Shown: one piece after another, positions 8,526 to 32,703 of the stretch | Numbering within the stretch: position 1 is the first letter of the stretch | How the letters are laid out: every line of letters begins with the position of its first letter | Assembly: GCA_016291435.1 (NCBI GenBank) | Contig: JAEEXH010000006.1 | Span: forward strand, 1-64,000 | DNA from: Oscillospiraceae bacterium | Lineage (GTDB): Bacteria; Bacillota; Clostridia; Oscillospirales; Ruminococcaceae | Length of the DNA stretch: 64,000 bases | Reading direction: 5' to 3' | Notes under the pieces: model-generated | Told to the model about the DNA's origin: nothing | What the model saw: only the letters and a program-made list of their open reading frames with translations | The model's database searches: none | Position numbers and translations under genes: made by a program

Positions 8526-8554
8526 TTGACAGTAACCGCTTTCTGTGTTAGAAT
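8526..8554 (+). promoter_or_regulatory. Sigma-A promoter of the polysaccharide operon
   Basis: TTGACA (8526-8531), 17-bp spacer, TAGAAT (8549-8554). It is the only strong promoter seen ahead of the ~24-kb co-directional gene block that ends at 32651. Confidence 0.8.
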
Positions 8555-8559
8555 ATATT

Positions 8560-8882
8560 TGTAGAAGAGCATATTTGCGCGTTTCTACGGCAGCATGACG
8601 CCGAAATACTGCGTTTTGCAGCAGCTGCGGAGCAGCGGAAAACAGTTCGGAAACGGTGTTGTTTTCCCCTCCCGGCAGCGGCGGCGTTCGGGCTGTCCTG
8701 CTTTTGCAGAACCGGCTGACCGGAGCTGAACGGCTCTGCCGGCGGGCTGCGGGCGGGGCTTGGGAATTTGAGAAATGTGCCGGGCGCTTCCTGACTGCTC
8801 TGCACGAAATAAGAAATGATGTTTGCGCAATGCGAATCCCCACGGTCTGACAAATAGAAAATTACAAAGCCGGAGGTTTATT
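8560..8882 (+). promoter_or_regulatory. Long untranslated leader of the polysaccharide operon
   Basis: About 325 nt separate the predicted start from rmlA. The leader is GC-rich with several possible hairpins (for example GCAGAACCGGCT with a downstream GGCTCTGC) and no credible coding frame. Leaders of this kind in long surface-glycan operons may host antitermination or attenuation control; no known RNA family is recognised. Confidence 0.4.
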
Positions 8883-9770
8883 ATGAAGGGAATCATATTG
8901 GCGGGCGGTTCCGGAACAAGACTCTATCCGTGTACGATCTCGGTCAGCAAGCAGCTCTTGCCGATCTATGATAAGCCGCTGATCTATTATCCGCTTTCTA
9001 TGCTGATGCTGGCAAAGATCCGTGATATCCTGATTATCTCCACACCGAATGACGTCGGCAATTATGAGAAGCTCCTGAAGGACGGCTCCCGCCTCGGTCT
9101 GCATATCCAGTATGCTGTGCAGGAGACGCCCAGAGGACTTGCGGATGCGTTCATCATCGGCGAAAAATTCATCGGCGATGACAGCGTGTGCCTTGTCCTC
9201 GGCGACAATGTTTTCTACGGTGCGAATATGTCCCGGATCCTCGAGCGCGCAATGGCTTCGATCGAGGGCGGCGGCGCCTCTATTTTTGGCTGCTTCATGA
9301 AGAACCCGCAGGAATTCGGCGTTGTCGAGTTCGATGAGCAGCGCAGAGTCATCTCCATTGAGGAGAAGCCGAAGAAACCGAAATCCAATTATGCGGTGCC
9401 GGGGCTGTATTTCTATGACAATCAGGTCGTGAACATCGCGAAGAATGTGCAGCCGTCTGCGCGCGGCGAACTTGAGATCTCGTCTGTCAACGAGGCTTAC
9501 CTGAATCTCGGGCAGCTCAAGGTCACGCTGATGGGCAGAGGCGTCACATGGTTCGATACCGGCTCGCCGAAGGGCATGCATAAGGCGAGCGGCTTTGTCA
9601 AGACGATCCAGGAGATGCAGGGCTTCTATATCTCCTGCATCGAGGAGATCGCGTGGCGCAAGCATTTCATTGATGACGAACAGCTCAGAAGATGCGGCGA
9701 GGAGCTCAAAAAGACCGAATACGGCAAATATCTTCTGTCGCTGCCGAAAAACGAGGAGGAACCGACATGA
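8883..9770 (+). CDS. rmlA: Glucose-1-phosphate thymidylyltransferase
   Basis: 295 residues, the usual RmlA length. It makes dTDP-glucose from dTTP and glucose-1-phosphate. The N-terminus [16 protein letters not shown] carries the nucleotide-binding G-x-G-T-R motif; [10 protein letters not shown] and [20 protein letters not shown] are diagnostic. ATG 8883 follows CCGGAGG by 10 bp. It is the first gene of the operon and overlaps rmlB by an ATGA junction. No rmlC or rmlD is present, so the product is unlikely to be dTDP-rhamnose. Confidence 0.96.
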
Positions 9771-10801
9771 CAATTATTGTGACGGGAGGCGCGGGATTCA
9801 TCGGCTCGAATTTCGTGTTCCATATGCTTTCTGCGTATCCCGATTACAGAATCATTTGTCTTGATAAGCTGACCTACGCAGGCAACCTTTCCACGCTGAA
9901 GGATGTGATGGATAACCCGAACTTCCGCTTCGTGAAGCTCGATATCTGTGACCGCGAGGGCGTGTACCGGCTGTTTGAGGAGGAGAAGCCGGATATCGTC
10001 GTCAATTTCGCTGCGGAATCCCATGTGGACCGCTCGATTGAGAATCCGGAGATCTTCCTGCAAACCAATATTCTCGGCACACAGGTGCTGATGGATGCCT
10101 GCCGCAAGTACGGCATCGTGCGCTACCATCAGGTCTCGACCGATGAGGTCTACGGCGATCTTCCGCTGGACAGACCCGACCTTTTCTTTACGGAGGATAC
10201 TCCGATTCACACCAGCAGTCCGTATTCCAGCTCGAAGGCAGGCGCAGACCTGCTCGTTCTGGCGTATCACCGCACCTACGGCCTGCCTGTTACAATTTCC
10301 AGATGCTCCAATAACTACGGCCCCTATCACTTCCCGGAGAAGCTCATTCCGCTCATGATCGCAAATGCGCTCGCGGATAAGCCGCTTCCGGTCTACGGTG
10401 AGGGGCTGAATGTGCGTGATTGGCTCTATGTCGAAGACCACTGCCGCGCAATCGACCTGATCATCCACAAGGGCAGAGTCGGCGAGGTCTACAATGTCGG
10501 CGGTCACAACGAGATGAAGAACATCGACATCGTGAAGCTGATCTGCCGGCTGCTCGGCAAGCCGGAGTCGCTGATCGTGCATGTCGAAGACCGCAAGGGG
10601 CATGACATGCGCTATGCGATCGACCCGACGAAGATCCACAGAGAACTCGGCTGGCTGCCGGAAACGAAGTTTGAGGACGGCATCCGGAAGACCATTGACT
10701 GGTATCTCAGCCACCGCGAATGGTGGGAGGAGATCATCTCCGGCGAGTATCAGAACTACTACGAGAAAATGTACGGAGACCGCGGATTGCTCCCGGTATA
10801 A
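9767..10801 (+). CDS. rmlB: dTDP-glucose 4,6-dehydratase
   Basis: 344-residue extended SDR enzyme converting dTDP-glucose to dTDP-4-keto-6-deoxyglucose. It shows the NAD motif TGGAGFIGS near the N-terminus, [10 protein letters not shown] and the catalytic Y-S-S-S-K at about residues 152-156. The start overlaps the rmlA stop (ATGA), implying translational coupling. With the aminotransferase that follows, it feeds an amino-deoxy sugar route. Confidence 0.96.
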
Positions 10802-10874
10802 AGGAATGATACGCCGCGGCGTGCCCGCAGCGGGATTTGAGGGAAAAGAAAACTGGTTGAAGGACGGGAAAGAA

Positions 10875-11975
10875 ATGAGCATTTATGTGACGCGCTCCTC
10901 TATGCCGGATTATGAGGAATACATCGAGGAGATCAAGCCGATTTTTGAGTCGCACCATCTGACGAATATGGGGCCGATCTACAAGAAGCTCCAGCATCAG
11001 CTGATGGCATATCTCGGCGTTCCGCAGCTTTCCATGTTTGTGAACGGCCATCTGGCGCTTGAGACCGTGATCCAGGCAATGGGACTCAAGGACTCGGAGG
11101 GTGAGGTCATCACGACGCCGTTTACCTTTGTATCGACGACCCATGCCATCACGCGGAACGGGCTGAAGCCGGTGTTCTGCGACATCAAGCCCGATGATTA
11201 CACGATGGATCCCGCGAAGATCGAGGCGCTGATCACCGATAAGACCGTTGCGATCGTGCCGGTGCATGTCTACGGCACGCTCTGCGACGTGGAGGCGATT
11301 GAGGCAATCGCGAAGAAGCACGGGCTGAAGGTGATTTACGATGCTGCACATGCGTTCGGCGTGAAGTATAAGGGCGTCGGCGTCGGCAATTTCGGCGATG
11401 CGGCAATGTTCAGCTTCCACGCGACCAAGGTCTTTAACACGATCGAGGGCGGCGCCATTGCGTTCAGCGATGAGACACTGCGCAAGAGCCTCCACAGCCT
11501 CAAGAATTTCGGCATCAAGGATGAGGAGTGCATAGACGAGGTCGGCGGCAATGCCAAGATGGACGAGTTCCGTGCGGCAATGGGCATCTGCAACCTCAGA
11601 AATATCGAAGCGTGCATCGCAGCAAGAGGTGCTGCGGCGGCACGGTACAACGAGCGCCTGAGCGGCGTGAAGGGCATTCAGCTCATGAAGACACAGGCGG
11701 ATGTCCAGCCCAATTACGCCTATTACGCTGTGCTGTTTGACGCAGAGCAGTTCGGCGAGAGCAGAGATGCGGTGTATGACCGCCTGAAAGCAAACGACAT
11801 CTATGCCAGAAAGTATTTCTACCCGGCAGTCAATGAGATGGACTGCTATGACAATACCAATGAGACCCCGGTCGCTGCGCGGATCTCGCGTCAGGTGCTG
11901 ACGCTTCCGATGTATGCAGACCTGACGGAAGCGGATGTTGACCGTATCTGCGACGTGATCCTTGAGAGAAAATAA
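10875..11975 (+). CDS. DegT/DnrJ/EryC1-family sugar aminotransferase (VioA-like)
   Basis: 366-residue PLP enzyme. The cofactor Lys is at about 185 in FHATKVFNTIEGG; VITTPFTFVSTTHAI and YDAAHAFGV are typical of sugar-nucleotide aminotransferases. The N-terminus (SMPDYEEYIEEI...HLTNMGPIYKKLQ) resembles VioA-type 4-aminotransferases, which make dTDP-4-amino-4,6-dideoxyglucose from the RmlB product. Position right after rmlA-rmlB fits. Whether C3 or C4 is aminated cannot be settled from sequence alone. GGGAAAG serves ATG 10875. Confidence 0.88.
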   Translation: MSIYVTRSSMPDYEEYIEEIKPIFESHHLTNMGPIYKKLQHQLMAYLGVPQLSMFVNGHLALETVIQAMGLKDSEGEVITTPFTFVSTTHAITRNGLKPVFCDIKPDDYTMDPAKIEALITDKTVAIVPVHVYGTLCDVEAIEAIAKKHGLKVIYDAAHAFGVKYKGVGVGNFGDAAMFSFHATKVFNTIEGGAIAFSDETLRKSLHSLKNFGIKDEECIDEVGGNAKMDEFRAAMGICNLRNIEACIAARGAAAARYNERLSGVKGIQLMKTQADVQPNYAYYAVLFDAEQFGESRDAVYDRLKANDIYARKYFYPAVNEMDCYDNTNETPVAARISRQVLTLPMYADLTEADVDRICDVILERK

Positions 11976-12043
11976 AAACTGCGCGTGAGCGGAATCACAC
12001 AGAGAAACAGACGGGTAAACGCAGGAAATAAAAGGTGAGGCAA

Positions 12044-12841
12044 ATGGACGAATATATCTCCAAAGAAACATGGCAGCAGCTCTCTGCGGAGGAAAAGCAG
12101 AAGATCGTTGAGGCGGTCGCACGCGTGCGGCGGGAGCGGGAGAACGGCGAGACTCCGAAGGTCTCGCTGCCGAAGTCCCTTTACGTCAGATACGGAAAGC
12201 GTATACTGGATATCATGATCTCGGGAGCGGCACTTCTTGTTACGCTCCCGATCAATGCAGGAATCCTTGTGATAACGTATTTCGATGTCGGCAAGCCGAT
12301 CCTGTTCAAGCAGGAGCGTGTCGGCAGAAATGAAAAGACGTTTTTTTTATGCAAATTCAGAAATATGACGAATGCGACCAACGAGCGCGGCGAGCTTCTG
12401 CCGCCCTCTGAGCGCGTGACAAAATGGGGGCAGTTTGTGCGGAAAACTTCGCTGGATGAGCTCCTCAATTTCTGGAGCATCTTAAAGGGCGATATGTCCG
12501 TGATCGGACCGCGCCCGATGCCGATCAAATATCTGGAGCGGTTCAGCGCCCGTCACAGACAGCGGCATCTGGTGCGCCCGGGTCTCGAATGCCCGTTCCA
12601 CGAGGAGCATTTGGGCTCCGAGGGCTGGCAGGGACGCTTTGAGAACGACATCTGGTATGTGGAGAATATCAGCTTCGGGACAGATCTCAGGATGGCATGG
12701 CTGCTCGTGAAGAAGGTGTTTTCGCGTGCGGAGCGCTCCGAAAGCGCATCGGGCAGCACGGGCGAATTTATCGGATACGGGCCGGACGGGAACGCAATGG
12801 ACGAAAACACGATCCCCGCGGAGTATCTGAAGGAACTGTAA
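12044..12841 (+). CDS. Initiating phosphoglycosyl transferase (PglC/WbaP C-terminal family)
   Basis: 265 residues. An N-terminal soluble helix precedes a membrane-dipping segment (RILDIMISGAALLVTLPINAGILVI) and the catalytic domain with KQERVGR, KFRNM and TSLDELLNFWSILKGDMSVIGPRP. This family moves a sugar phosphate from a nucleotide sugar to undecaprenyl phosphate, starting repeat-unit assembly. It lacks the four extra N-terminal helices of full WbaP, so it is of the minimal type. AAAGGTGAGG at 12031-12040 supports ATG 12044 over GTG 12035. Confidence 0.9.
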   Translation: MDEYISKETWQQLSAEEKQKIVEAVARVRRERENGETPKVSLPKSLYVRYGKRILDIMISGAALLVTLPINAGILVITYFDVGKPILFKQERVGRNEKTFFLCKFRNMTNATNERGELLPPSERVTKWGQFVRKTSLDELLNFWSILKGDMSVIGPRPMPIKYLERFSARHRQRHLVRPGLECPFHEEHLGSEGWQGRFENDIWYVENISFGTDLRMAWLLVKKVFSRAERSESASGSTGEFIGYGPDGNAMDENTIPAEYLKEL

Positions 12842-12859
12842 GATTTCGAGGTGAACGGT

Positions 12860-13615
12860 ATGGAACCGATGGAGAAGCTGCTGTATTCCGACGGGAAGAC
12901 CAGCCTGATCTTTGTGGCGCAGGCGGGCTTCATCCTGAAAAGCAGCAAGGGCACGACAATGGGCATTGACCTCTACCTGACAGACTGCGTGGAGCGCTAT
13001 GACGGCTTCAAGCGGCTGTCGCCGAAGGTGTTCCGCCCGGAGCAGCTGGAGCTTGACTATGTGGCTGCCACGCACTGGCATCTGGACCATTTCGATATTG
13101 ACGCGATGCCGCTGCTGATGGCAAACCGCAGAACAAAGCTGATCTGTGCGGAGGACTGCCGCATGCATGCGGAGAATCTCCGTCTCGACGGGAGCCGTGT
13201 GGAGTACATCCGAACCGGCTCGCATACAGTCTGCGATGACATTACGCTGGATGCGGTCTTCTGCGACCACGGCACCGGCGCACCGCTGGCGGTCGGTCTG
13301 GTGCTGACTGTTGACGGCCGGAAAATCTATATCGCGGGCGATACGGCGCTGCGTCTCGACAAGGCGCCCGAGGTCGCGGCATACGGTCCCTTTGATGTGA
13401 TGATCGCGCCGATCAACGGCGCATTCGGAAACCTCAACGAGGCGGAGAATGTCCGTCTCTGTGCATTCCATCGGCCGAAGCTGTCTGTTCCGTGCCATTT
13501 CTGGACATTCGCGGAGCAGCACGGCGATCCGGGCGTGTATATGGAGCTCATGCAGAAGGAGCTGCCGGAACAGAAATACTGCATTCCCGCACCCGGCGAA
13601 CAGATCTTTCTGTGA
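12860..13615 (+). CDS. Metallo-beta-lactamase-fold hydrolase (UlaG-like)
   Basis: 251 residues. The zinc motif THWHLDHFD is present near residue 75, and later ligands include FCDHG, AGDTAL and PCHFWTFAEQHGD. The layout resembles UlaG-like lactonases of the MBL superfamily. GAGGTG lies 6 bp before ATG 12860. Encoded between the initiating transferase and an ATP-grasp enzyme, it probably acts on a sugar or acyl precursor, but the substrate is unknown. Confidence 0.82.
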   Translation: MEPMEKLLYSDGKTSLIFVAQAGFILKSSKGTTMGIDLYLTDCVERYDGFKRLSPKVFRPEQLELDYVAATHWHLDHFDIDAMPLLMANRRTKLICAEDCRMHAENLRLDGSRVEYIRTGSHTVCDDITLDAVFCDHGTGAPLAVGLVLTVDGRKIYIAGDTALRLDKAPEVAAYGPFDVMIAPINGAFGNLNEAENVRLCAFHRPKLSVPCHFWTFAEQHGDPGVYMELMQKELPEQKYCIPAPGEQIFL

Positions 13616-13648
13616 AGAATATAACTGTGTGATTTAGGAGGCTTTACA

Positions 13649-14941
13649 ATGGCTAACAGAGAATTTGAAGGAAAGAAGCTGCTGATCCTCGGCGGCAATC
13701 CCGAGACTGTCCCGCTCGTTGAGATGGCGAACGGCATGGGCATCAAGACGATTGTTGCGTCTTCTGTCCCCGATGAGCCTGCAAAGCGCGTTGCGTGGAT
13801 GGGGTCCGACGTGGACGGCATGGATGTGCCCGGTCTGGTCGCGCTGGCACGCGAGCAGAAGGTTGACGGCGTGCTTGTCGGCGTCGCGGATATGCTGGTG
13901 CCTTCCTACTGCAAGGTCTGCGATGCGCTGGATCTGCCCTGCTATGCCACACAGAAGATCGTGGACGTCTTTGCGTTCAAGGATATTTTCAAGACGACCT
14001 GCGAGCAGTACGGCGTACACGGCATTCCGGAGTTCTATCTCGATGCGGATATGAAGGAAGAGGACATTGCAAAGATCCAGTTCCCGGTCATGGTGAAGCC
14101 TGTGGACAGCGCGAGCGGTCAGGGCATCGTCCGCTGCAACAATGCCGAGGAGCTGAAGAAGGCAGTGCCCTATGCACTTTCCTTCTCGAAGAAGAAGCGC
14201 TTTATCGTCGAACGCTATATGGAATGCGACGATATGGGCATGTATTACACCTTCAAGGACGGCAAATGCAGTGCCTCCTGTATTTATGACAGATACACCA
14301 CCGGCGAGCAGCCCGGGCTTGCGCGTGTCTGCCTCGGCGGCACCTATCCCTCCAAGCATCTGCCGGAGTATTTCGAGCGGATGCACAAGAATGCCCTCCG
14401 CATGTTCAAGGAGATCGGCATTGAGAACGGCGTGCTGATGCTCTCCGGCTTCTTTGAGAACGGGGAGTTCTATGTGTATGATACCGGCTTCCGTCTTCAG
14501 GGCGAAGCACCGCATCTCCTCATGAAGGCGATCCACGGCTTCGACCAGCGCGAAATGCTGATCCGCTTTGCACTGACCGGCAGTGAGGGCGATTTCGATT
14601 TGCTCGAAAAGGATGACACGAATCTCCGCGGCAAGAAGGCTGCGACGCTCTGGTTCGTGCTGAAGAAGGGCACGATCGCGAAGATCGAGGGCCTCGATGC
14701 ATGGAAGGACGATCCGTGCGCAGTCGAGCTCATCCAGAGAAAGTATGAGGGCGATGAGATCATCCCGCAGTGGATCGGCACGGAGAAGCAGGTGCTTGCA
14801 CGCCTGTATCTTGTCTGTGATACGAAGGAGCAGCTTGCAGAACGCCTGCATCATTACATGGATACCGTGAAGGTGACAGATACGAACGGCGGGCAGATGC
14901 TTCTGAAGGGCTTTGACGTCGAAAAGGCGCTTGAGCTTTGA
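13649..14941 (+). CDS. ATP-grasp ligase
   Basis: 430-residue cytosolic protein of the ATP-grasp superfamily (carboxylate-amine/thiol ligases). The N-terminal preATP-grasp fold begins KKLLILGGNPETVPLVEMA. The ATP-binding core has FPVMVKPVDSASGQGI and FIVERYMECDDMGMYY, and later GFFENGEFYVYDTGFRLQG supplies the metal/phosphate region. AGGAGG precedes ATG 13649. In this locus it might attach an amino acid or acid to the amino sugar made upstream; that is inference. Confidence 0.85.
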   Translation: MANREFEGKKLLILGGNPETVPLVEMANGMGIKTIVASSVPDEPAKRVAWMGSDVDGMDVPGLVALAREQKVDGVLVGVADMLVPSYCKVCDALDLPCYATQKIVDVFAFKDIFKTTCEQYGVHGIPEFYLDADMKEEDIAKIQFPVMVKPVDSASGQGIVRCNNAEELKKAVPYALSFSKKKRFIVERYMECDDMGMYYTFKDGKCSASCIYDRYTTGEQPGLARVCLGGTYPSKHLPEYFERMHKNALRMFKEIGIENGVLMLSGFFENGEFYVYDTGFRLQGEAPHLLMKAIHGFDQREMLIRFALTGSEGDFDLLEKDDTNLRGKKAATLWFVLKKGTIAKIEGLDAWKDDPCAVELIQRKYEGDEIIPQWIGTEKQVLARLYLVCDTKEQLAERLHHYMDTVKVTDTNGGQMLLKGFDVEKALEL

Positions 14942-14959
14942 TGCAGAGGAGATGGGACA

Positions 14960-15733
14960 TTGGGCATGAGTAAAAGACTGGAAGGCAAGGTTGTCGTTGT
15001 CTCCGGCGGCACGAAGGGCGTCGGACGCGCACTCGCGGAAAACTGCGGCATGGAGGGCGCGACGGTCATCATCGGCGGCCGCGACGAGAAAGCTGCGAAG
15101 GAAGCACTGCGCAATATCCGCACCTACGGCTCTGACGGCATGTTCGTGCATACCGATCTGCTGAAGGTCGATGACTGCAGAGCACTCTTCGACAGAGCCT
15201 ATGAGAAGTTCGGCAAGATCGACGGCTTCTTCAATTACGCAGGCGTGACGCCGGTCTCCCCGCTGGATACCTGCGATGAGAAAACCTTTGATTGGGTGAT
15301 GGATGTCAATTTCAAGGCGGCATTTTTCTGCTGCCAGCAGGCGATCAGATACATGCGCCTGAACGGCGGCGGCAGCATCGTTCTGACGGGCTCCGCACAT
15401 GCCTGGGGCGGACAGAAGGACCGTGCAGCCTATGCCTGCTCGAAGGGCGTCCTGCTGACGCTCATGGAGCATATCGCACATCAGTATGCAGCGGAGAATA
15501 TCCGCTGCAACTATCTGACGCTCGGCTGGACACCGACAGAGGGCGAGGTCGCGCTGCGCCGCTCGCAGGGTGAGACAGAGGCAGAGCTCAGAAAGCGTGC
15601 TGCGGATATCCTGCCGATGGGACGGATGTGCGAGCGCAACGACTATATGGAAGGGCTTGTATATCTGCTCTCGGATGCCAGCGCAATGATGACAGGCAGC
15701 GTGTTCCGCATCACCGCAGGCGAATATATTTGA
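14960..15733 (+). CDS. Short-chain dehydrogenase/reductase
   Basis: About 255-257 residues, classical SDR. The cofactor motif is VSGGTKGVGRALAE; NYAG and the catalytic triad Ser (VLTGSAHAW) and Y-A-C-S-K follow; the C-terminus SAMMTGSVFRITAGEYI is typical. AGAGGAG at 14945-14951 is 8 bp from TTG 14960 and 14 bp from ATG 14966, so a TTG start is plausible, with ATG 14966 the alternative. The substrate is probably a sugar or polyol intermediate of the locus. Confidence 0.87.
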   Translation: MGMSKRLEGKVVVVSGGTKGVGRALAENCGMEGATVIIGGRDEKAAKEALRNIRTYGSDGMFVHTDLLKVDDCRALFDRAYEKFGKIDGFFNYAGVTPVSPLDTCDEKTFDWVMDVNFKAAFFCCQQAIRYMRLNGGGSIVLTGSAHAWGGQKDRAAYACSKGVLLTLMEHIAHQYAAENIRCNYLTLGWTPTEGEVALRRSQGETEAELRKRAADILPMGRMCERNDYMEGLVYLLSDASAMMTGSVFRITAGEYI

Positions 15734-15754
15734 CCGCTTGAGAGGATGGGAAGT

Positions 15755-16939
15755 ATGACAAAAGATCTGATCAGCGTGATCGTTCCGATCTACAACATCG
15801 AGCCGTATGTCGGCTACTGCATTGAAAGCCTCATCAAGCAGACCTACCGGAATCTTGAGATTATACTGGTGGATGACGGATCGACGGACAGATCCTCTTT
15901 CCTCTGCGATCTCTACGCCTCCAAGGATGCCCGCATCAAGGTCATCCACAAGCCGAACGGCGGACTTGTCTCTGCGCGGAAAGCAGGCGCAGCGGCTGCG
16001 GAGGGCGAGTATATCGGATATGTGGACGGCGACGACTGGGTCGAGCCGACCTATTATGCTGCCATGTTTCAGGCGGCAAAGCGCTCCGGCGCGGATATTG
16101 TCTGCGCGGGGTACAGCAAGGATCTGTTTCATCAGCAGATCAAGTGCAGCGACCAGTTTCTGGACGGCATCTACGAGGGTCAGACGCTCGAAAAGCTCTG
16201 GCGCGGGATGATGTCCTTTGAGGATACATTTCAGGTCGGCATCACAACATATGTCTGGAACAAGCTGTTCCGTGCCGGGATTGTCCGCGATGTGCAGATG
16301 CGCGTGGATGAGCGGATCACGATCGGCGAGGACGGTGCAGTGACCTATCCGGCGCTGCTGCGTGCGAAATCCGTGTATGTCTGTGAGAATTCCGATTATC
16401 ATTACCGCCAGAGAGAGGGCTCGATGCTCAAGCAGCACAACGCCTTCCGTCAGGAGGCGGAGAAGCTGCGGGCGCTCTATGAATGCATCCGCAGCGCATT
16501 TGAGGAGGATCCCCGCAGGGATTATCTTCTGCCGCAGCTCACGGACTATGTGCTCTGCAACTGCATTATGCGCGCAGGCGGTCTGAACCGTGCGGTCTTT
16601 GAGCCGGATTTCCGCGGGAAGCGGGTCGCGATCATTCAGGCGGGCACATTCGGCCAGCTGATCTACGACAGACTGCTTGCCGCGAATTACTGCACAGTCG
16701 TCGGCTGGTATGACGAGGACTACTGGGAATACCGCAGATGCGGCATGAATGTGGATCCGCTGCCGGATCTTGTGCATACGGAGCTTGACTATGCAGTGAT
16801 CGCAAAGCTCGATCAGCGGGTGGTCGGAGAGATCCGCGAGTTCCTGCTGAAGATGGGCGTTCCGGCAGAGAAGATCCTGAGCGTCAGCTATCAGGCGCTG
16901 GACAGGCCGGCGCTGCTCAAAGAGTTCCTTTCTCAGTGA
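15755..16939 (+). CDS. GT2 glycosyltransferase with C-terminal Rossmann-like domain
   Basis: 394 residues. The N-terminal GT-A fold has SVIVPIYNIEPYVGYCIESL, VDDGSTD and the metal motif YVDGDDW. From about residue 290, GKRVAIIQAGTFGQLIYDRLL starts a small Rossmann-like domain often fused to capsule GT2 enzymes. GAGAGG abuts ATG 15746 and is 9 bp from ATG 15755, so the latter is preferred. It likely adds one sugar of the repeat unit on the cytoplasmic face. Confidence 0.88.
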   Translation: MTKDLISVIVPIYNIEPYVGYCIESLIKQTYRNLEIILVDDGSTDRSSFLCDLYASKDARIKVIHKPNGGLVSARKAGAAAAEGEYIGYVDGDDWVEPTYYAAMFQAAKRSGADIVCAGYSKDLFHQQIKCSDQFLDGIYEGQTLEKLWRGMMSFEDTFQVGITTYVWNKLFRAGIVRDVQMRVDERITIGEDGAVTYPALLRAKSVYVCENSDYHYRQREGSMLKQHNAFRQEAEKLRALYECIRSAFEEDPRRDYLLPQLTDYVLCNCIMRAGGLNRAVFEPDFRGKRVAIIQAGTFGQLIYDRLLAANYCTVVGWYDEDYWEYRRCGMNVDPLPDLVHTELDYAVIAKLDQRVVGEIREFLLKMGVPAEKILSVSYQALDRPALLKEFLSQ

Positions 16940-16998
16940 GTTGAAAAAAAGGAGAAGCCGCAGGCTGATTATCTGGAACAAGAAGGGTGTTTATTGAA

Positions 16999-17949
16999 AT
17001 GGGCATGAAAAAGCTGTATAAAGCATTCTCGCTGAAGAGCGGCAAGGTTTCTAAGGACATGAAGGTCATGACACAGGAGGAACTGCGTCAGCTGCATGCG
17101 GTGCTTCTGATGATCATGGACGATATTATGACAGTCTGCGATGAGGAAAAGCTGGTCTGCCTGCTGGGCGGCGGCTCCGCATTGGGTGCGATCCGGCATC
17201 ATGGCTTCATCCCGTGGGATGATGATATCGACATCAATATGCCGAGAGATTCCTTTGAAAAGTTCGTCCCTGCATTCCGTAAGAAATTCGGCGACAAATA
17301 CTGGGTGCATACGCCCGCTGAACATCCGGAGTACGGCACGCTGGTCACGAAGGTGCGCCTCAAGGGAACAAAGCTCAAAACGAACGGCAGCATCATCAAC
17401 GATTCGGAAGCCGGCATCTTTGTCGATGTGTTCGTGATCGAGAATGTGCCAGACAGCAAGATCCTGCGTGCGCTGCAGGGCAGTGCGGCAACTGTCAGCA
17501 AGGCGTGCTGCTCCTGCCGCAAGTTTTACCGCGACCGGAAGGATGTGCTGAAGTCGATGGGCGAGGAGAAATCGCCGAGCATGACAACGCGGATCCGCCT
17601 GGTGCTCGGCTTCCTTTGCTCCGTGATGTCGGTCGAGAAATGGACCGTGCTGACCGACAAGCTCTTCAAAATGTGCAAAAACAGGAAAACAAAGCTCGTG
17701 AATATCCCGTCCGGCAGATGGCATTATTTCTCCTCCTATCACATCCGCAAGGACTTCTGCCGCACGCACCGTGTCCCGTTTGCGGGCAGAATGTATCCGA
17801 TCTGCAACGGCATCGACGATTACATGAAGCTGCTCTACGGCGATACCTATATGCAGCTTCCGCCGGAGGAGAAGCGGGAGATCCATACCTGCTGGGAATT
17901 TGATTTCGGACAGTATGCCGATCTGTATAAGCGTGAGGAGAGCCGATGA
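16999..17949 (+). CDS. LicD-family phosphotransferase (first copy)
   Basis: 316 residues with the LicD signature GGGSALGAIRHHGFIPWDDDIDINMPR (about 55-82), containing the nucleotidyltransferase-fold Asp residues that bind metal. LicD enzymes transfer phosphocholine or related phospho-alcohol groups from CDP/CMP donors to glycans. AGAAGGGTG is 9 bp ahead of ATG 16999. The locus has two LicD proteins and phosphonate genes, so one may transfer CMP-activated phosphonate and the other a different phospho-alcohol. Confidence 0.9.
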   Translation: MGMKKLYKAFSLKSGKVSKDMKVMTQEELRQLHAVLLMIMDDIMTVCDEEKLVCLLGGGSALGAIRHHGFIPWDDDIDINMPRDSFEKFVPAFRKKFGDKYWVHTPAEHPEYGTLVTKVRLKGTKLKTNGSIINDSEAGIFVDVFVIENVPDSKILRALQGSAATVSKACCSCRKFYRDRKDVLKSMGEEKSPSMTTRIRLVLGFLCSVMSVEKWTVLTDKLFKMCKNRKTKLVNIPSGRWHYFSSYHIRKDFCRTHRVPFAGRMYPICNGIDDYMKLLYGDTYMQLPPEEKREIHTCWEFDFGQYADLYKREESR

Positions 17950-19082: not shown

Positions 19083-19086
19083 GCGT

Positions 19087-20379: not shown

Positions 20380-20401
20380 TCATCACTGAAAGAGAAAAAA
20401 C

Positions 20402-21478: not shown

Positions 21479-21520
21479 CTGTGACGGCTCTGTGCAGCCG
21501 CCTTGCATTTGGAGGTAACT

Positions 21521-22570: not shown

Positions 22571-22594
22571 TACGGATATGAGGAGTGTTGGATC

Positions 22595-23038: not shown

Positions 23039-23069
23039 AAACAATCATTTGACAGGAGGCGATCATAAC

Positions 23070-24641: not shown

Positions 24642-24722
24642 CATCGCCGGGATCCGGACTGAAACAGCACAGCGGGATGTGTGATCATGCCCGCAGGAAG
24701 GATAAAGGAGTTCAATACACGA

Positions 24723-26144
24723 ATGAGCAGAGAGGGTAAGCTGGTCAAAAATACATTCATTATCTCGATCGGAACATTTTTGCCGAAGCTGGCAGCATTT
24801 ATCACACTTCCGATCCTGACAGGCTGTCTGGCGAAGGAAGAATACGGTGTATATGAGCTGATCATGGATATGGTCTCGCTGCTGCTTCCCACAGCAACGC
24901 TCCAGATACAGACAGCAGCGTTCCGTTTCCTGATCGACAGGCGCGATAAGACCGATGATGTGAAGAAGATCGTGACGAACATTTTTGTATTTATCGTGCC
25001 GATTGCTTTGCTCGCGCTGACGATCCTGTTCTTTGCAATGTTCTTTTTCCTCCCGAACGAACAGACGGGGATCAAGCTCCTGATCTGCCTGTATTTCTTC
25101 GCGGACATTCTGGTGAATGCGACCAGACAGATCGCGCGCGGCTTGAATAAGAACCTCTTTTACTCGGTCAGCGCGGTCGTCAGTGCAGTGTGCAAAATGC
25201 TCTTTGCTCTGCTGTTCGTGCAGTATCTCCAGATCGGACTCTTCGGCGCAGTGCTCTCGCTTGCGCTTGCATCGCTCGTCTCTCTGATTGTTCTGCTCAT
25301 CACCTCAAAGATCCACCGCTATATCGACCTCCGCAAGGTCAGCTGGGGGCAGATCAAGGAGCTGATCGGCTATTCCTGGCCGATGGTTCCGAACAGCATG
25401 TCGATGTGGGTCATGCGCCTTTCCGACCGCTTCGTGATCACCGGCTTTATGGGGCTCGCACCGGTCGCGGTGTATTCTGCGGCGAATAAGCTCCCCTCGA
25501 TGCTCACGCTCGCACAGACGACCTTTACGATGGCATGGCAGGAGAATGCCAGCATCGTTTCCAAAGACAAAGATGCCGGTGCGTATTACAGCTCGATGTT
25601 CCGCACCATGTTTGACCTCATGGCGGGCTTCATGGGTGTCCTGATCGCCGCAACGCCGATCCTGTTCAAGCTCCTGATCCGCGGCGACTACTCAGAATCC
25701 TACCCGCATATCCCGATTTTGTTCCTCGCGATGTTCTTCTTCAGCATGTGTGCGTTTCTGGGCGGCATTTATGTTGCCTACATGGACACGAAGAGCGTCG
25801 GCGTCACGACCGTTGTGGCGGCAATCTGCAACCTGGTGATCAATCTTGCAGCAATCAAGTTCATCGGCATCTATGCAGCATCCATTTCTACGCTGGTGAG
25901 CTATATCCTGCTTTATGTCTATCGCATGTTCCATGTCAGAAAGCTGGTCGAAATCCGCTATCAGCCGCTGCACATTCTCATCGTGATCGCGCTGCTGGTT
26001 GCGGAATGTACCCTCTGCTTCTTCCAGAACACCTATCTCAACCTGCTCAATGCGGTCATTGGCGTGACTGCATTTGTCATCCTGAATCAGCCGCTGATCA
26101 AGACATGCTGGAAAAAAGCGGCAAAGATGCTGAAACGCGCATAA
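24723..26144 (+). CDS. Wzx-type flippase (MOP superfamily)
   Basis: About 473 residues with 12-14 hydrophobic segments; LVKNTFIISIGTFLPKLAAFITLPIL and EEYGVYELIMDMVSLL are typical of polysaccharide flippases that move lipid-linked repeats across the membrane. AAAGGAG (24704-24710) points to ATG 24723 with a rather long 12-bp spacing; ATG 24687 and GTG 24681 in frame are alternatives with weaker sites. Together with the initiating transferase and polymerase it makes this a Wzx/Wzy-type pathway. Confidence 0.9.
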   Translation: MSREGKLVKNTFIISIGTFLPKLAAFITLPILTGCLAKEEYGVYELIMDMVSLLLPTATLQIQTAAFRFLIDRRDKTDDVKKIVTNIFVFIVPIALLALTILFFAMFFFLPNEQTGIKLLICLYFFADILVNATRQIARGLNKNLFYSVSAVVSAVCKMLFALLFVQYLQIGLFGAVLSLALASLVSLIVLLITSKIHRYIDLRKVSWGQIKELIGYSWPMVPNSMSMWVMRLSDRFVITGFMGLAPVAVYSAANKLPSMLTLAQTTFTMAWQENASIVSKDKDAGAYYSSMFRTMFDLMAGFMGVLIAATPILFKLLIRGDYSESYPHIPILFLAMFFFSMCAFLGGIYVAYMDTKSVGVTTVVAAICNLVINLAAIKFIGIYAASISTLVSYILLYVYRMFHVRKLVEIRYQPLHILIVIALLVAECTLCFFQNTYLNLLNAVIGVTAFVILNQPLIKTCWKKAAKMLKRA

Positions 26145-26182
26145 AGCCCGAATGAATCCGAAACGCAAGGGAGTGAGAACCG

Positions 26183-27421
26183 ATGCCGGAACAGTATACG
26201 CCGCATACATCGACCCGTTACTGCCGCACAGCGGAGCGGCAGTCCGAAAAGCCGCTGCCGGAGCTCTATGCTTCGCGGGAGCAGTGCTGCGGCTGCACAG
26301 CCTGTGAATCGGCATGCCCGGTCAAAGCGATCCGCATGACGCCGGATGCAGAGGGCTTCCTCTACCCGGAGGTGGACGCCGCGCTGTGCATCGGCTGCGG
26401 AAAATGTACGAAGGTCTGTGCATTCAAGCCCGATCAGCAGAAGCGCGCAGAGGGCGGCAAACCCGATCATGAGCCTGCGGTCTATGCCGTCAGGCATAAG
26501 GACGAAGCGATCCGTGCAGCGTCCCGCTCCGGCGGCATCTTCACGGCGCTCTCCGATCTGTTTCTGTCAGAGGGCGGGGCAGTCTACGGCTGTGTGCTGA
26601 CGGAGGATTTCCGTGCGGTGCATGTCCGCGCAGAGGACGCAGCCGGGCGCGACCGGATGCGCGGCTCCAAGTATATCCAGAGTGATCTGCTGGACTGCTT
26701 CCGGCAGGTGCAGGCAGATCTCCGCGCAGGGAAAAAGGTGCTGTTCAGCGGCACCTCCTGTCAGGTTGCCGGGCTGCGCAGCTTTCTCGGAAAGCCGGAC
26801 AGCAATCTTTTTTGTGTGGATATCGTCTGCCACGGAGTCCCGAGCCCGCTGGTCTGGCGCAGGTATCTTGCATGGCAGACGGAACAGCACGGCAGCCGCG
26901 TGACGGCCGTGGATTTCCGCAACAAGCAGCGCTTTGGCTGGCGCGCACATGTGGAGACGATCTGCTTTGAGGACGGCACGGAAACGGACAGTCAGATCTT
27001 CAAGACGATGTTTTATTCGCACAGCATCCTGCGCCCCTGCTGTTATCATTGTCCCTATAAATCCACCCTGCATCCCGGCGATATTTCCATTGCGGATTAC
27101 TGGGGGATTGAAAAGGCAGCGCCGGGTTTCAGCGACAACAAGGGCGTTTCGCTGGTGCTGATCAATACAGAAGCGGGACAGCAGTGTTTTGACCGGGTCC
27201 GGGATGCACTGGCTTGCGTGCAGACAAAGCTGCAGGACAGCTTGCAGCCGCCGCTGATCGCGCCCTTTCCCGCACCCGCAAACCGCACAGCATTCTGGGA
27301 GGACTTTTATCGGATGCCGTTTGCGGACATTGCGAGGAAATACGGCAGAAAGCCGTTCATGCAGAGAGTCAAGGCGTTCCTGCGCAAAAAGCTGCGCAGG
27401 ATGCTTCAAAAACAGAAATAG
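26183..27421 (+). CDS. FrhB-like iron-sulfur protein (coenzyme F420 hydrogenase/dehydrogenase beta subunit family)
   Basis: 412 residues. Two [4Fe-4S] motifs near the N-terminus (CCGCTACESACP and CIGCGKCTKVC, about residues 34-80) are followed by the FrhB N and C domains (SRSGGIFTALSD; FSGTSCQVAGLRSFL; DIVCHGVPSPLVWRRYL). It probably binds flavin and acts as an oxidoreductase. Such proteins recur next to polysaccharide pyruvyl transferases in Firmicute and Bacteroidete glycan loci; the reaction there is not established. Confidence 0.85.
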   Translation: MPEQYTPHTSTRYCRTAERQSEKPLPELYASREQCCGCTACESACPVKAIRMTPDAEGFLYPEVDAALCIGCGKCTKVCAFKPDQQKRAEGGKPDHEPAVYAVRHKDEAIRAASRSGGIFTALSDLFLSEGGAVYGCVLTEDFRAVHVRAEDAAGRDRMRGSKYIQSDLLDCFRQVQADLRAGKKVLFSGTSCQVAGLRSFLGKPDSNLFCVDIVCHGVPSPLVWRRYLAWQTEQHGSRVTAVDFRNKQRFGWRAHVETICFEDGTETDSQIFKTMFYSHSILRPCCYHCPYKSTLHPGDISIADYWGIEKAAPGFSDNKGVSLVLINTEAGQQCFDRVRDALACVQTKLQDSLQPPLIAPFPAPANRTAFWEDFYRMPFADIARKYGRKPFMQRVKAFLRKKLRRMLQKQK

Positions 27422-27438
27422 GAGGACAGGAAATCATT

Positions 27439-28371
27439 ATGACTGAAACCGAGAGAATCGTGGCGCAGGGCATTGTGGATGCTGATTTTCTGAAGCCCGA
27501 GGTGCGGGACGAATATGAAGTGACTGCGGAGGCAAAGAAGATCTGGGCGATCGAGATCGACCTGCTCCGCAAGTTTGACGAGGTCTGCCGCAAGCACGGT
27601 CTGCGTTACTGGGCGGGCTTCGGCACGATGCTGGGCGCAGTCCGGCATCACGGCTTCATTCCGTGGGATGATGACGTGGATGTCTGGATGCCGCGTGAGG
27701 ATTACAACAAGCTGCTGAAGCTGCCGCAGAGTGAATTCGGCGCACCGTTCTTTTTGCAGACAACGATGAACGACGATGATTATTACAGCGCCTTTGCACG
27801 CCTCAGAAACAGCAATACGACCGGCATCCTTGTTTCCAAGTATAACAAGTGCAACAACGGCATCTATATGGATATTTATCCGCTGGACGGTCTGCATCCG
27901 AACAAAAATCTGCAAATGGTGAATTCCTACAATGTGCGGGTCCGGAACCTGATGGCGCATGCGTATATGTTCAATATCAACCCGCGGCTCATCACCCGCA
28001 TCATCTCGAAGGTTCTGCGGTCGGGGATCATCCCCTTCAATCACCGCAAGACCTATCAGAAGGTCAACCGCATCGCAATGAAGCGGAAATGGGCGGATGC
28101 CTCGGAGGTCGGCATCGTCGTCTTCTGGCCGTATGCCTATGCGCATAACCACTTCCGCAAGGATGCGTTCCAGGATACGGTCTATCTGCCGTTTGAGCAT
28201 ATCAGTGTCCCTGTGCCGAGCGGATATAAGCATGTTCTGCGCGTGCTTTACGGGGATTTCATGAAATTCCCGCCGGTGGAGCAGCGCGGGCAGTGGCATG
28301 ATTTCTTCTTTGAGCCGGATGTGGATTACAAGACGTATTGCAGTGAGCATTACGGAACCAAATACCAATAA
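27439..28371 (+). CDS. LicD-family phosphotransferase (second copy)
   Basis: 310 residues with GFGTMLGAVRHHGFIPWDDDVDVWMPR (about 55-81), the LicD core. AGGAGG precedes ATG 27439. It is directly upstream of the phosphonate genes, with only 17 bp between its stop and the pepM ATG, so it is the best candidate to transfer a CMP-activated phosphonate to the glycan. That substrate assignment rests on context alone. Confidence 0.9.
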   Translation: MTETERIVAQGIVDADFLKPEVRDEYEVTAEAKKIWAIEIDLLRKFDEVCRKHGLRYWAGFGTMLGAVRHHGFIPWDDDVDVWMPREDYNKLLKLPQSEFGAPFFLQTTMNDDDYYSAFARLRNSNTTGILVSKYNKCNNGIYMDIYPLDGLHPNKNLQMVNSYNVRVRNLMAHAYMFNINPRLITRIISKVLRSGIIPFNHRKTYQKVNRIAMKRKWADASEVGIVVFWPYAYAHNHFRKDAFQDTVYLPFEHISVPVPSGYKHVLRVLYGDFMKFPPVEQRGQWHDFFFEPDVDYKTYCSEHYGTKYQ

Positions 28372-28388
28372 TGGAAAGGAACGATACA

Positions 28389-30407: not shown

Positions 30408-30408
30408 T

Positions 30409-31524
30409 ATGCAGCAGATTCTGACTGCAAGTGCGGATTACGCCGAACTGGACGAATATTTCGTTCAGTCCGGCGCAGAAAGCATCTTGCTTGTATGTGA
30501 CAGCGCCTTTGGGTTCCTGCGCATCAGGGATTACTTTGAGACACTCGAAGCACGCAGGGGCATCCGCGTTGTCAGGTTCTCTGATTTCCAGCCGAATCCG
30601 CTGTATGAATCGGTGGTCAAAGGCGTGGAGATCTTTCATGAAAATGGCTGCGGTCTGATCGCAGCAGTCGGCGGCGGCAGCGCCATCGACGTTGCAAAGT
30701 GCATCAAGCTGTATTCCAATATGGACAGCAGCGAAAACTATCTCAAACAGCAGATCGTGCCGAATGATGTGCCGCTGCTTGCTGTCCCGACAACCGCGGG
30801 CACCGGCAGCGAGGCGACCCGCTACGCCGTCATTTACTACAACGGCGCAAAGCAGTCCGTCACCGATTACAGCTGCATTCCGTCCACGGTTCTGTTTGAT
30901 GCAAGTGCCCTCAAAACCCTGCCGGTGTATCAGAAGAAGGCGACCATGATGGATGCGCTCTGTCATGCGATTGAGTCCTTCTGGTCGGTCAACTCCAATG
31001 CGGAGAGCATGGGTTATTCGCAGCAGGCGATTGAAATGATCGTTGCGAACAAGGCAAGCTATCTTGCCAACGAGGAAGCAGGCAACGAAAAAATGCTGAA
31101 AGCCGCGAACATTGCGGGCAAGGCAATCAATATCACGCAGACAACGGCAGGGCATGCAATGTGCTACAAGCTGACGAGCCTTTACGGCATTGCGCACGGC
31201 CACGCGGCGGCGCTCTGCGACAAAGCACTGATTCCCTTTATGATGCAGCATCCGGAGGCATGTATTGATCCGCGCGGCGAGCAGCATCTGAAGCAGGTGC
31301 TCGGCAAAATCGCGGCGGCATTCGGCTGCAAGCCGGAGGCGCTCGCAGAATGTTTTGCAGCGCTCGTCGATTCGCTCGAATTGCCGGTACCGGAGGTCAG
31401 GTCGCCGGAGGATATCGACACGCTCAAGATTTCGGTCAATCCGGACCGTCTGAAGAATCATCCGGTCAAGCTGACCGCGGAGACCATTGAAAGCCTTTAT
31501 AAGCAGATTTTGAGACAGGAGTAA
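30409..31524 (+). CDS. Iron-containing alcohol dehydrogenase, likely phosphonoacetaldehyde reductase
   Basis: 371-residue group III Fe-ADH. The NAD motif is GGGSAIDVAKCIK; the metal region has TTAGTGSEATRYAVIY, MMDALCHAIESFWS and GIAHGHAAALCD. It lies one base after pepM and 5 bp before the decarboxylase gene, where other pathways place an aminotransferase. This suggests reduction of phosphonoacetaldehyde to 2-hydroxyethylphosphonate, as in PhpC/FomC-type enzymes. Substrate is inferred from context. Confidence 0.88.
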   Translation: MQQILTASADYAELDEYFVQSGAESILLVCDSAFGFLRIRDYFETLEARRGIRVVRFSDFQPNPLYESVVKGVEIFHENGCGLIAAVGGGSAIDVAKCIKLYSNMDSSENYLKQQIVPNDVPLLAVPTTAGTGSEATRYAVIYYNGAKQSVTDYSCIPSTVLFDASALKTLPVYQKKATMMDALCHAIESFWSVNSNAESMGYSQQAIEMIVANKASYLANEEAGNEKMLKAANIAGKAINITQTTAGHAMCYKLTSLYGIAHGHAAALCDKALIPFMMQHPEACIDPRGEQHLKQVLGKIAAAFGCKPEALAECFAALVDSLELPVPEVRSPEDIDTLKISVNPDRLKNHPVKLTAETIESLYKQILRQE

Positions 31525-31529
31525 GAAAA

Positions 31530-32651
31530 ATGAAAGTTGGAAGTCTTGTTCAGATCATCGGCGCGGATTTCTATACCGGTGTGCCGGATTCGCAGCTCAA
31601 AGCGCTCTGCAACTACCTGATGGATACCTACGGGATTGATCAGAATCATCATATCATCGCGGCAAACGAAGGCAACTGCACCGCTCTCGCTGCGGGCTAT
31701 CATCTGGCTACCGGCAAGGTTCCGGTTGTCTATATGCAGAACTCCGGCGAGGGCAACATCATCAATCCGGTCGCCTCGCTGCTGAATGACAAGGTCTACG
31801 CAATCCCGATGATCTTCATCGTCGGCTGGCGCGGTGAGCCGGGCGTTCACGATGAGCCGCAGCACATCTATCAGGGCGAGGTCACGGTCAGGCTGCTCGA
31901 AGATATGGACATCAAGACCTTTATCATCGGCAAGGATACGACCGAGGACGAGCTCAGAGCTGTCATGGAAGATTTCCGCAAGGTGCTCGCTGCCGGCAAA
32001 CAGGTCGCATTTGTTGTCCGCAAGGGCGCACTGACCAACGCACCGGAGGTCGAATACAAGAACAGCAACAAGCTGATCCGTGAGGAGATCATTCAGCATA
32101 TTGTCAAGGCAGCAGGGGAGGATCCGATCGTCTCCACGACCGGCAAGCCGAGCCGTGAGCTGTTTGAAACCCGTGCCGCAAACGGTCAGAGCCACAAGTA
32201 TGACTTCCTGACAGTCGGCTCGATGGGTCACACTTCTTCGATTGCACTCGGCATCGCGATCAACAAGCCGGAGCAGAGAATCTGGTGCGTGGACGGCGAC
32301 GGTGCGGTGCTGATGCACATGGGTGCGATGGCGGTGCTCGGTGCAAACAAGCCGAAGAACCTTGTGCATGTGGTCATCAACAACGGCGCACATGAGACTG
32401 TCGGCGGCATGCCGACCGTTGCGGCGCAGATTGATCTGGTCGGCATTGCAAAGGCGTGCGGCTATCCGAATGCAGTCTGCGTCGATCAATTCGCCGATCT
32501 CGACCGCGAGCTTGCGGCGGCAAAGGGCAGAAATGAGCTGTCTCTGATCGAGGTGAAGTGTGCCATCGGTGCGCGTGAAGATCTCGGCAGACCGACTACG
32601 ACTGCGCTCGAAAACAAGCAGAACTTCATGGCATATCTTGCGACACTCTGA
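31530..32651 (+). CDS. aepY: Phosphonopyruvate decarboxylase
   Basis: 373-residue ThDP enzyme that decarboxylates phosphonopyruvate to phosphonoacetaldehyde, pulling the unfavourable mutase reaction forward. The N-terminal half has FYTGVPDSQLKAL and NEGNCTALAAGYHLATG; the C-terminal half has the ThDP motif GDGAVLMHMGAMA ending VINN. Length and order match Ppd/AepY. It is the last gene before the operon terminator. Confidence 0.95.
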   Translation: MKVGSLVQIIGADFYTGVPDSQLKALCNYLMDTYGIDQNHHIIAANEGNCTALAAGYHLATGKVPVVYMQNSGEGNIINPVASLLNDKVYAIPMIFIVGWRGEPGVHDEPQHIYQGEVTVRLLEDMDIKTFIIGKDTTEDELRAVMEDFRKVLAAGKQVAFVVRKGALTNAPEVEYKNSNKLIREEIIQHIVKAAGEDPIVSTTGKPSRELFETRAANGQSHKYDFLTVGSMGHTSSIALGIAINKPEQRIWCVDGDGAVLMHMGAMAVLGANKPKNLVHVVINNGAHETVGGMPTVAAQIDLVGIAKACGYPNAVCVDQFADLDRELAAAKGRNELSLIEVKCAIGAREDLGRPTTTALENKQNFMAYLATL

Positions 32652-32667
32652 TCAATGAAAACAGGAA

Positions 32668-32703
32668 CAGCCCGCTGCGTTTGATTCAGCGGGCTGTATT
32701 TCT
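32668..32703 (+). terminator. Terminator of the polysaccharide-phosphonate operon
   Basis: CAGCCCGCTG pairs with CAGCGGGCTG around CGTTTGATT, followed by TATTTCTT. It ends the ~24-kb transcription unit and faces the convergent esterase gene. Confidence 0.8.

Follow-up and report, generated by a model that had tools for sequence, protein, structure and literature searches.

Which phosphonate is made by an operon that joins polysaccharide genes to a phosphoenolpyruvate (PEP) mutase gene, and where does that phosphonate go? The question is raised by a 64,000-nucleotide (nt) stretch of the draft genome of an Oscillospiraceae bacterium (GCA_016291435.1, contig JAEEXH010000006.1), hereafter the window, which makes up nearly all of a 64,686-nt contig (C16). 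Its operon of 21 genes, all on the + strand (8883-32651, RmlA first and Ppd last), ends with pepM, an iron-dependent alcohol dehydrogenase (Fe-ADH) gene and the gene for the phosphonopyruvate decarboxylase Ppd. An earlier note on this DNA had proposed that the product is 2-hydroxyethylphosphonate (HEP) rather than 2-aminoethylphosphonate (AEP), activated with cytidine monophosphate (CMP) for a surface glycan. That proposal is supported by a Fom1-like, HEP-type cytidylyltransferase (CyTase), by an Fe-ADH that follows pepM in most related loci, by nucleotidyltransferase (NTase)-ADH fusions in other genomes, by the lack of an AEP transaminase match above cut-off, and by the location of both LicD genes in the operon. 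The operon probably directs the synthesis of a Wzx/Wzy-type surface polysaccharide and its decoration with HEP. As predictions from sequence, the synthesis of HEP and its activation with CMP have good support. We infer that a LicD protein attaches HEP to this glycan, and likewise infer the substrates of the Fe-ADH and LicD proteins, the acceptor glycan and the division of labour between the NTase domains.

In the proposed pathway, PEP mutase would convert PEP to phosphonopyruvate, Ppd would convert this to phosphonoacetaldehyde, and the Fe-ADH would reduce the aldehyde to HEP. CMP-HEP would then be formed by the Fom1-like domain, perhaps jointly with the PntC-like one, and a LicD protein, most likely LicD2 encoded just upstream of pepM, would move HEP onto a repeat-unit sugar before or around export by Wzx.

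The phosphonate block

Pfam and NCBIfam searches agree with the earlier note that pepM, Fe-ADH and Ppd lie at the 3' end of the operon with two LicD genes upstream (Table 1). The pepM product is a triple fusion. Its PEP mutase domain scores 397 bits with TIGR02320, above the equivalog cut-off of 319.6, domain 1 is a MobA/LicC/PntC-like NTase (PF12804, 36.0 bits, cut-off 27), and domain 2 is a CyTase (PF01467, 53.4 bits, cut-off 21). The protein has the Pnt feature of an NTase fused to PEP mutase (Ppm). The PntC-type domain had been recognised previously; the second, Fom1-like cytidylyltransferase within the triple fusion had been overlooked.

Of 81 triple-fusion copies, 36 were aligned. Residues G15-x-G17-x-R19, P28-K29 and H113-G114-D115 of domain 1, the HxGH motif (H260-x-G262-H263) of domain 2 and the EDKX5NS motif (E505 D506 K507 ... 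N513 S514) of the PEP mutase are invariant in all 36, and each of the three sites therefore looks active. The closest sequence match of domain 1 is LicC (1jyk, E = 2.4e-7), with PntC-AEPT (6pd1, amino acids (aa) 8-136, E = 5.5e-4) as a further one. Domain 2 matches 5x3d with 52% identity over 122 aa (E = 1e-38); this entry is filed as phosphoenolpyruvate phosphomutase, and we take it to be the cytidylyltransferase domain of Fom1. Fom1 cytidylylates HEP to give HEP-CMP (PMC6697681, PMC8976061). In a structure model of the whole fusion (mean predicted local distance difference test score, pLDDT, 84) the best fold matches are PEP mutases, and 6pd1 and 6pd2 rank lower, the aligned ranges not being shown. 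The Fe-ADH holds D182, H186, H249 and H263, which are presumably its metal ligands.

HEP or AEP

The surroundings of pepM were compared in 80 related loci (L numbers), whose fetched stretches are of unequal length, many contigs being short. Greedy calling of open reading frames (ORFs) takes antisense ORFs in GC-rich loci and so yields no pepM ORF in seven of the 80; tblastn was used for the ADH and Ppd counts, replacing called ORFs. An Fe-ADH starts no more than 150 nt after pepM in 73 of the 80 loci, and the exact pepM-ADH-Ppd spacing is found in 55 of the 69 loci having at least 2400 nt downstream. The seven loci without an adjoining Fe-ADH are L006, L026 (123 nt of sequence left), L061, L066, L068, L077 and L078.

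CyTase domains were tabulated in 97 rows: the window, the 80 loci and 16 further loci. The branch enzyme is an Fe-ADH in 82 rows, an AEP transaminase in six, both in one and neither in eight. Identity to the window domain is 49-100% in the ADH rows versus 40-43% in the transaminase rows, and identity to 5x3d is 44-63% (mean 50) versus 36-42% (mean 38). At residues 290, 338 and 344 the ADH rows read K/D/Q (73 rows), R/D/Q (six) or otherwise (three), and all six transaminase rows read N/N/E. Both 5x3d and the window read K/D/Q, and in the tree 5x3d branches with ADH rows L140, L184 and L185. Both NTase domains of the fusion resemble those of the window more in ADH loci than in transaminase loci, and either of them could make CMP-HEP. 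The transaminases of two of the six rows were put through NCBIfam, and both pass TIGR03301. No TIGR03301 match over the cut-off was found in the draft genome of the window, which is 92.7% complete (best 35 against 360.8 bits).

The signature was also applied to a test set from the family of G860 (G numbers denote genomes), which gave 43 matches; 38 were kept, G726, G840, G860 and G881 being training rows and G1008 partial. The rule is correct in all 25 decidable loci of the 38 (nine ADH, 16 transaminase), or in 24 of 24 out of 37 when L225, the same record as training row L080, is left out. The remaining 13 rows were unscored: nine have an undecided signature (two with ADH, seven with neither enzyme) and four have a signature but lack either enzyme in the stretch. 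Training and test sets are not independent, since the family of G860 also gave no fewer than four of the six transaminase training rows (L190, L191, L192 and L195) and the ADH row L080, and 12 of the 16 correct transaminase calls come from one genus (g478). This dependence weakens the test and lowers confidence in the preferred reading, HEP on the glycan. The comparison shows that the KDQ/NNE rule predicts well among these sequences, which represent a small number of evolutionary events; the KDQ form may be no more than ancestral.

Seven loci (L138, L139, L237, L243, L245, L248 and L249) carry a third CyTase signature, in which 290 and 338 are both N and 344 is L, M, I or A; neither Fe-ADH nor AEP transaminase was found in the fetched stretches of these loci. 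L246 and L247 read Y/R/W at the three positions, with neither enzyme found in their fetched stretches. Residue 344 (Q with HEP, E with AEP, hydrophobic in the third group) could be part of the substrate switch, and genomes could then be scored for cell-coating phosphonate.

G030, G476 and G357 each encode a fusion of a domain-1-like NTase with an Fe-ADH, beside CyTase-PepM and Ppd, with the NTase and ADH Pfam domains above cut-off in all three fusions. G030 comes from a set of 150 relatives of the window's genome; its fusion protein was then used as query, and a full-length NTase-ADH fusion was found in two of 391 genomes of the class. In G476 the open frame of the fusion extends further to include a GT2 glycosyltransferase, and a LicD gene comes next. 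The NTase-ADH fusion mirrors the PntC-AEP transaminase fusion and ties NTase, ADH and glycan work together; the fused ADHs are presumed to be active.

The glycan operon and the transfer of HEP

The 20 intergenic gaps of the operon, with revised gene starts, range from -4 to +73 nt. LicD2 and pepM overlap by 1 nt, and 1 nt separates pepM from ADH and 5 nt ADH from Ppd. The promoter at 8526 has the top score of its scan, which gave 17 sites on both strands versus 7.8 +/- 2.9 in shuffles. A leader of about 325 nt (8555-8882) precedes rmlA, and an Rfam search of 8300-9100 returned nothing at E<=1. The terminator scan omitted the end hairpin, whose T-run is imperfect; it was recognised by reading and by folding, positions 32645-32720 folding at -25.4 kcal/mol (z -2.8), with two of 200 shuffles equally good. 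On spacing and end signals the 21 genes are predicted to form a single transcript, in line with the tight operon, bounded by promoter and terminator, of the earlier note.

An initiating transferase, a flippase and a polymerase, as in Wzx/Wzy-dependent systems, are present together, with PF02397, PF01943 and PF04932 each above the Pfam cut-off. The RmlA, RmlB and DegT homologues would make up a set for a deoxythymidine diphosphate (dTDP)-activated 4-amino-4,6-dideoxyhexose, the predicted sugar. LytR-CpsA-Psr proteins are the usual glycan-to-wall ligases, and three of them are encoded elsewhere in the draft genome.

Table 1. Genes and end signals of the operon, with positions in the window and bit scores where given.
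Feature	Position	Strand	Evidence
Sigma-70-like promoter TTGACA-17-TAGAAT	8526..8554	+	11/12, TG before -10; consensus match only
RmlA-like nucleotidyltransferase	8883..9770	+	PF00483 237.7
RmlB-like dTDP-glucose 4,6-dehydratase	9767..10801	+	PF16363 299.8
DegT/DesI-like sugar aminotransferase	10875..11975	+	PF01041 331.4; TIGR04427 313, below cut-off of 650
Initiating sugar-phosphate transferase	12035..12841	+	PF02397 157.8
Metallo-beta-lactamase-fold protein	12851..13615	+	PF12706
ATP-grasp ligase	13649..14941	+	PF07478/PF02786
Short-chain dehydrogenase	14960..15733	+	PF13561
GT2 glycosyltransferase	15746..16939	+	PF00535
LicD1, phosphotransferase-family protein	16987..17949	+	PF04991 111.6 (cut-off 22.6)
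GT4 glycosyltransferase	17946..19082	+	PF00534
Wzy/O-antigen ligase-family polymerase	19087..20379	+	PF04932 59.8 (cut-off 31.7)
Polysaccharide pyruvyl transferase family	20402..21478	+	PF04230 102.9
NAD-dependent epimerase/dehydratase	21503..22570	+	PF01370
Stand-alone TagD-like cytidylyltransferase	22595..23038	+	PF01467 78.1; TIGR01518 92.4, below 165.4
HMGL/4-hydroxy-2-oxovalerate aldolase-like enzyme, extra C-terminal region	23049..24641	+	PF00682; NF006049 87.5, below 229
Wzx flippase	24681..26144	+	PF01943 103.1
Ferredoxin/FrhB-like protein	26183..27421	+	PF04432, Fer4
LicD2, candidate HEP transferase	27439..28371	+	PF04991 154.7 (cut-off 22.6); stop overlaps pepM start
Triple fusion (pepM), 678 aa	28371..30407	+	NTase aa ~7-245, cytidylyltransferase aa ~248-388, PEP mutase aa ~394-677
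Fe-ADH, proposed phosphonoacetaldehyde reductase	30409..31524	+	PF00465/PF25137
Phosphonopyruvate decarboxylase (Ppd)	31530..32651	+	TIGR03297 464.9, above equivalog cut-off of 312.5; PF02775/PF02776
Intrinsic terminator hairpin	32667..32697	+	11-bp GC-rich stem, then ATTTCTT (read from sequence)

A search of the window's own draft genome found two LicD proteins, both encoded within the operon, and none of the CDP-glycerol glycerophosphotransferase family (PF04464, TagF-like). Among 30 genomes of the genus, LicD2 relatives (E<=1e-20) occur in seven of eight with a triple fusion versus four of 22 without (Fisher P 0.001), or in five of six versus four of 22 (P 0.007) when two same-operon genomes are left out; these Fisher tests ignore shared ancestry. 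Among the 150 relatives the counts are nine of 12 with a triple fusion versus 26 of 138 without. LicD and pepM lie on different contigs in several of these draft genomes. LicD2 is favoured over LicD1 as the HEP transferase by position only.

Home-made profiles found LicD in 23 of the 80 loci, TagF-like proteins in 20, both in four and neither in 41, counts that may be low because they depend on ORF calling and on contigs that differ in length. The TagF-like examples that were checked (L010, L013, L025, L058 and L065) are all PF04464. Mutual exclusivity of LicD and TagF-like proteins was considered and dropped, the four loci with both being not below chance (P 0.24). In L025, L027 and L059 a TagF-like protein is encoded after Ppd and is possibly part of another acceptor system; L025 and L027 share the next cluster, which in L025 is a YidC-like/sulfatase two-domain protein.

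Several observations, in addition to the disregard of shared ancestry in the Fisher tests, weigh against HEP decoration of this glycan. The six transaminase rows and two of the rows with neither enzyme form one clade (support 1.0) nested among the ADH rows, so that a single transaminase clade underlies the signature contrast. In the test set, KEL and KNL occur in two ADH rows. The Fe-ADH scores 142.9 bits with the PsrA model TIGR03405, its top NCBIfam model, far below 423.7, and 19 of 82 relatives have DQHH at the four positions presumed to bind the metal. At L066 (12031-13945) an AEP transaminase-like gene lies between a KDQ triple fusion and an Fe-ADH; the 270 aa tested score 348.6 with TIGR03301, just below 360.8, and 376.7 with NF010006, above 296, and this locus perhaps makes both HEP and AEP. 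The 41 loci with neither LicD nor TagF-like protein in the fetched stretch, and several cassettes that by eye sit among housekeeping genes, imply that the glycan link is not universal. A LicD1 query matches the same 11 genus genomes as LicD2, so the co-occurrence supports the LicD family and does not single out LicD2. A pepM-specific LicD clade was ruled out for LicD2, the nearest distinct full-length matches in the 150 relatives being 26-34% identical and coming from genomes with and without pepM. A 52% local match of LicD2 in L135 was left unused, as it is absent at E<=1e-20 in the search of the 150 relatives.

Four alternatives to HEP on the glycan were weighed. A decoration with AEP, made by a transaminase unlinked to pepM, would agree with the view that most bacterial phosphonate capacity serves surface tailoring with AEP-like molecules (PMC6697681), and L066 illustrates that a transaminase-like gene can adjoin a triple fusion; given the TIGR03301 result for the genome, the KDQ signature, the Fom1-side position in the tree and the Fe-ADH adjoining pepM, we consider it very improbable. 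HEP could instead be an intermediate to a different phosphonate, such as a small secreted molecule. The fosfomycin and argolaphos pathways pass through HEP (PMC6697681, PMC8976061), and a pepM/ppd/adh cluster of a gut methanogen has been read as that of a possible antibiotic producer (PMC10035134). The Pfam scans of the operon, however, gave glycan machinery, one ATP-grasp protein apart, and no oxygenase or methyltransferase family, and such a product appears quite unlikely; HepD, MpnS and HppE were not looked for in the genome. It is also conceivable, though we think it unlikely, that HEP is made and CMP-activated for another acceptor (a wall teichoic-like polymer, a lipid or a protein) and that the cassette is merely co-regulated with the glycan genes. 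The varied contexts of the cassette, including those loci lacking a LicD or TagF-like neighbour and those amid housekeeping genes, would be expected then, but in the window the cassette forms one co-linear set with Wzx, Wzy and two LicDs, the only ones that the genome search detected, and no PF04464 protein was found in the genome.

The aldolase and the stand-alone cytidylyltransferase might act on the phosphonate and give a longer one. At L135 (7382-17128, in G044) DegT-RmlA-RmlB are followed by CyTase-PepM, an aldolase, an acetolactate-synthase-like thiamine pyrophosphate (TPP) enzyme, an Fe-ADH, a lone CyTase and two LicDs, a set that is possibly an undescribed phosphonate branch, and L010 and L032 also carry an aldolase relative (39-40%). 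Against this stands the distribution of the enzyme: aldolase matches (E<=1e-20) occur in 25 of the 150 relatives, 20 of which have no pepM match (E<=1e-60), and the aldolase was ruled out on this basis as an enzyme of the HEP route in the window. In the fetched neighbourhoods it often adjoins HAD hydrolases and a KdsB-type CMP-sugar synthase, as in a separate module (the KdsB-type neighbour of L123 passes TIGR00466, that of L126 is PF02348 and five others were recognised by eye), which suggests a CMP-activated 2-keto-3-deoxy acid. A role in a longer phosphonate thus has little probability in our view, and both enzymes probably lie outside the HEP route. In the window the TagD-like enzyme stands in the place of the KdsB-type synthase, and a second activated group, handled by LicD1, is plausible. 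The earlier note was right that both LicDs are present; it had assigned both to the phosphonate, and the second cytidine triphosphate (CTP)-dependent transferase and the aldolase allow a reading with two substituents.

Related systems and spread of the cassette

In 2019, 42 of 1485 Ppm proteins were reported to be triple fusions, and the same article put forward the activation of surface phosphonates with CMP (Rice et al., PMC6697681). The window resembles the Pnt pathway described there in its EDKX5NS Ppm fused to PF12804 and PF01467, in the logic of CMP activation, and in LicD-like and glycosyltransferase genes close by; it differs in that characterised PntCs prefer AEP, whereas the window has an Fe-ADH in place of the AEP transaminase and a HEP-type CyTase. 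Because the AEP-production feature was not found, it is not an AEP-Pnt member, though it would work like one, and we regard it as a putative variant of the Pnt pathway with the AEP step replaced by HEP. With the Fom1 CyTase-PepM of fosfomycin synthesis the window protein shares the CyTase identity given above, the HxGH motif and K/D/Q at 290/338/344, and it differs in its additional N-terminal PntC-like domain and its glycan context. PntC-AEPT (6pd1/6pd2) is alike in the sequence of domain 1 and in the fusion of an NTase to the next pathway enzyme; the partner is different, being Fe-ADH in G030, G476 and G357 and CyTase-PepM in the window. The exopolysaccharide of Glycomyces bears HEP; it is alike in having HEP on a polysaccharide and different in coming from an actinomycete, whose genes were not compared. 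The pepM-ppd-adh1 cluster of Methanocorpusculum vombati is alike in its three enzyme functions, gut habitat and proposed horizontal transfer, and different in belonging to an archaeon and in being read by its authors as possibly antibiotic; it is likened by function, the sequences not having been compared (PMC10035134). The HEP-type signature, the NTase-ADH fusion, HEP glycans in Ruminococcus and a HEP assignment for a Firmicutes capsule operon were not met in a partial literature search, and their absence from print is not claimed.

The nearest named record is an uncultured Ruminococcus metagenome-assembled genome (MAG), L003, which is 99% identical (the same contig as L107 of G021). The suggestion of the earlier note that the gene order be sought in other Ruminococcus gave a mostly negative outcome: the order LicD2-pepM-ADH-Ppd occurs only in L003 among the 80 loci. 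The remaining loci hold pepM, mostly with ADH and Ppd, amid other neighbours, which vary widely between loci as expected of a moving cassette. The distribution of the triple fusion is patchy. A pepM match (E<=1e-60) was found in 17 of the 150 relatives, own genome included, and is full-length in 12; across the phylum it was found in 14 of 398 genomes, the only single full-length fusions being those of the window and of G288. Named isolates among the 80 loci include Ruminococcus sp. FC2018 (L010), [Clostridium] symbiosum ATCC 14940, Hungatella hathewayi DSM 13479 (L052) and Ruminococcus flavefaciens ND2009, the last with no ADH in its fetched stretch. Loci labelled Bacteroidales, Kiritimatiellae or Selenomonas are MAGs, for which misbinning is possible.

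These observations lead us to suggest, tentatively and with considerable doubt, a transferable HEP-tailoring system, distinct from AEP tailoring and widespread in gut Firmicutes. It would consist of a KDQ CyTase-PepM, an Fe-ADH, Ppd and a PntC-like domain, would pass CMP-HEP to a LicD or a TagF-like (PF04464) protein according to locus, and in the window would use two LicDs to add HEP and an aldolase-derived group. If so, with a TagF-like partner the free hydroxyl of HEP could permit chain growth and give a phosphonate-linked, teichoic-acid-like polymer. In the gut bacterium Bacteroides fragilis, AEP is known as a surface phosphonate, carried by CPS-B (PMC12413058). An HEP group would be negatively charged with a C-P bond, AEP being zwitterionic, and different recognition by phages, the immune system and enzymes would be expected. 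The KDQ/NNE contrast and the NTase-ADH fusion suggest a way to predict HEP versus AEP from sequence, and such predictions are testable in named isolates with the cassette, such as Hungatella hathewayi DSM 13479 and Ruminococcus sp. FC2018.

Some further arrangements were seen. At L077 (10001-17741) a triple fusion is followed by a short-chain dehydrogenase, a second PepM-cluster ORF, N- and C-terminal transketolase-like halves (by eye) and Ppd, with no Fe-ADH found by tblastn. The metallo-beta-lactamase-fold protein of the operon has a 49% identical relative in the pepM-bearing locus L078, labelled Bacteroidales. Downstream of the operon, a convergent gene on the - strand (32767-34008) encodes a secreted GDSL-like protein whose long linker is rich in Thr/Ser and whose C-terminus, by eye, resembles a dockerin.

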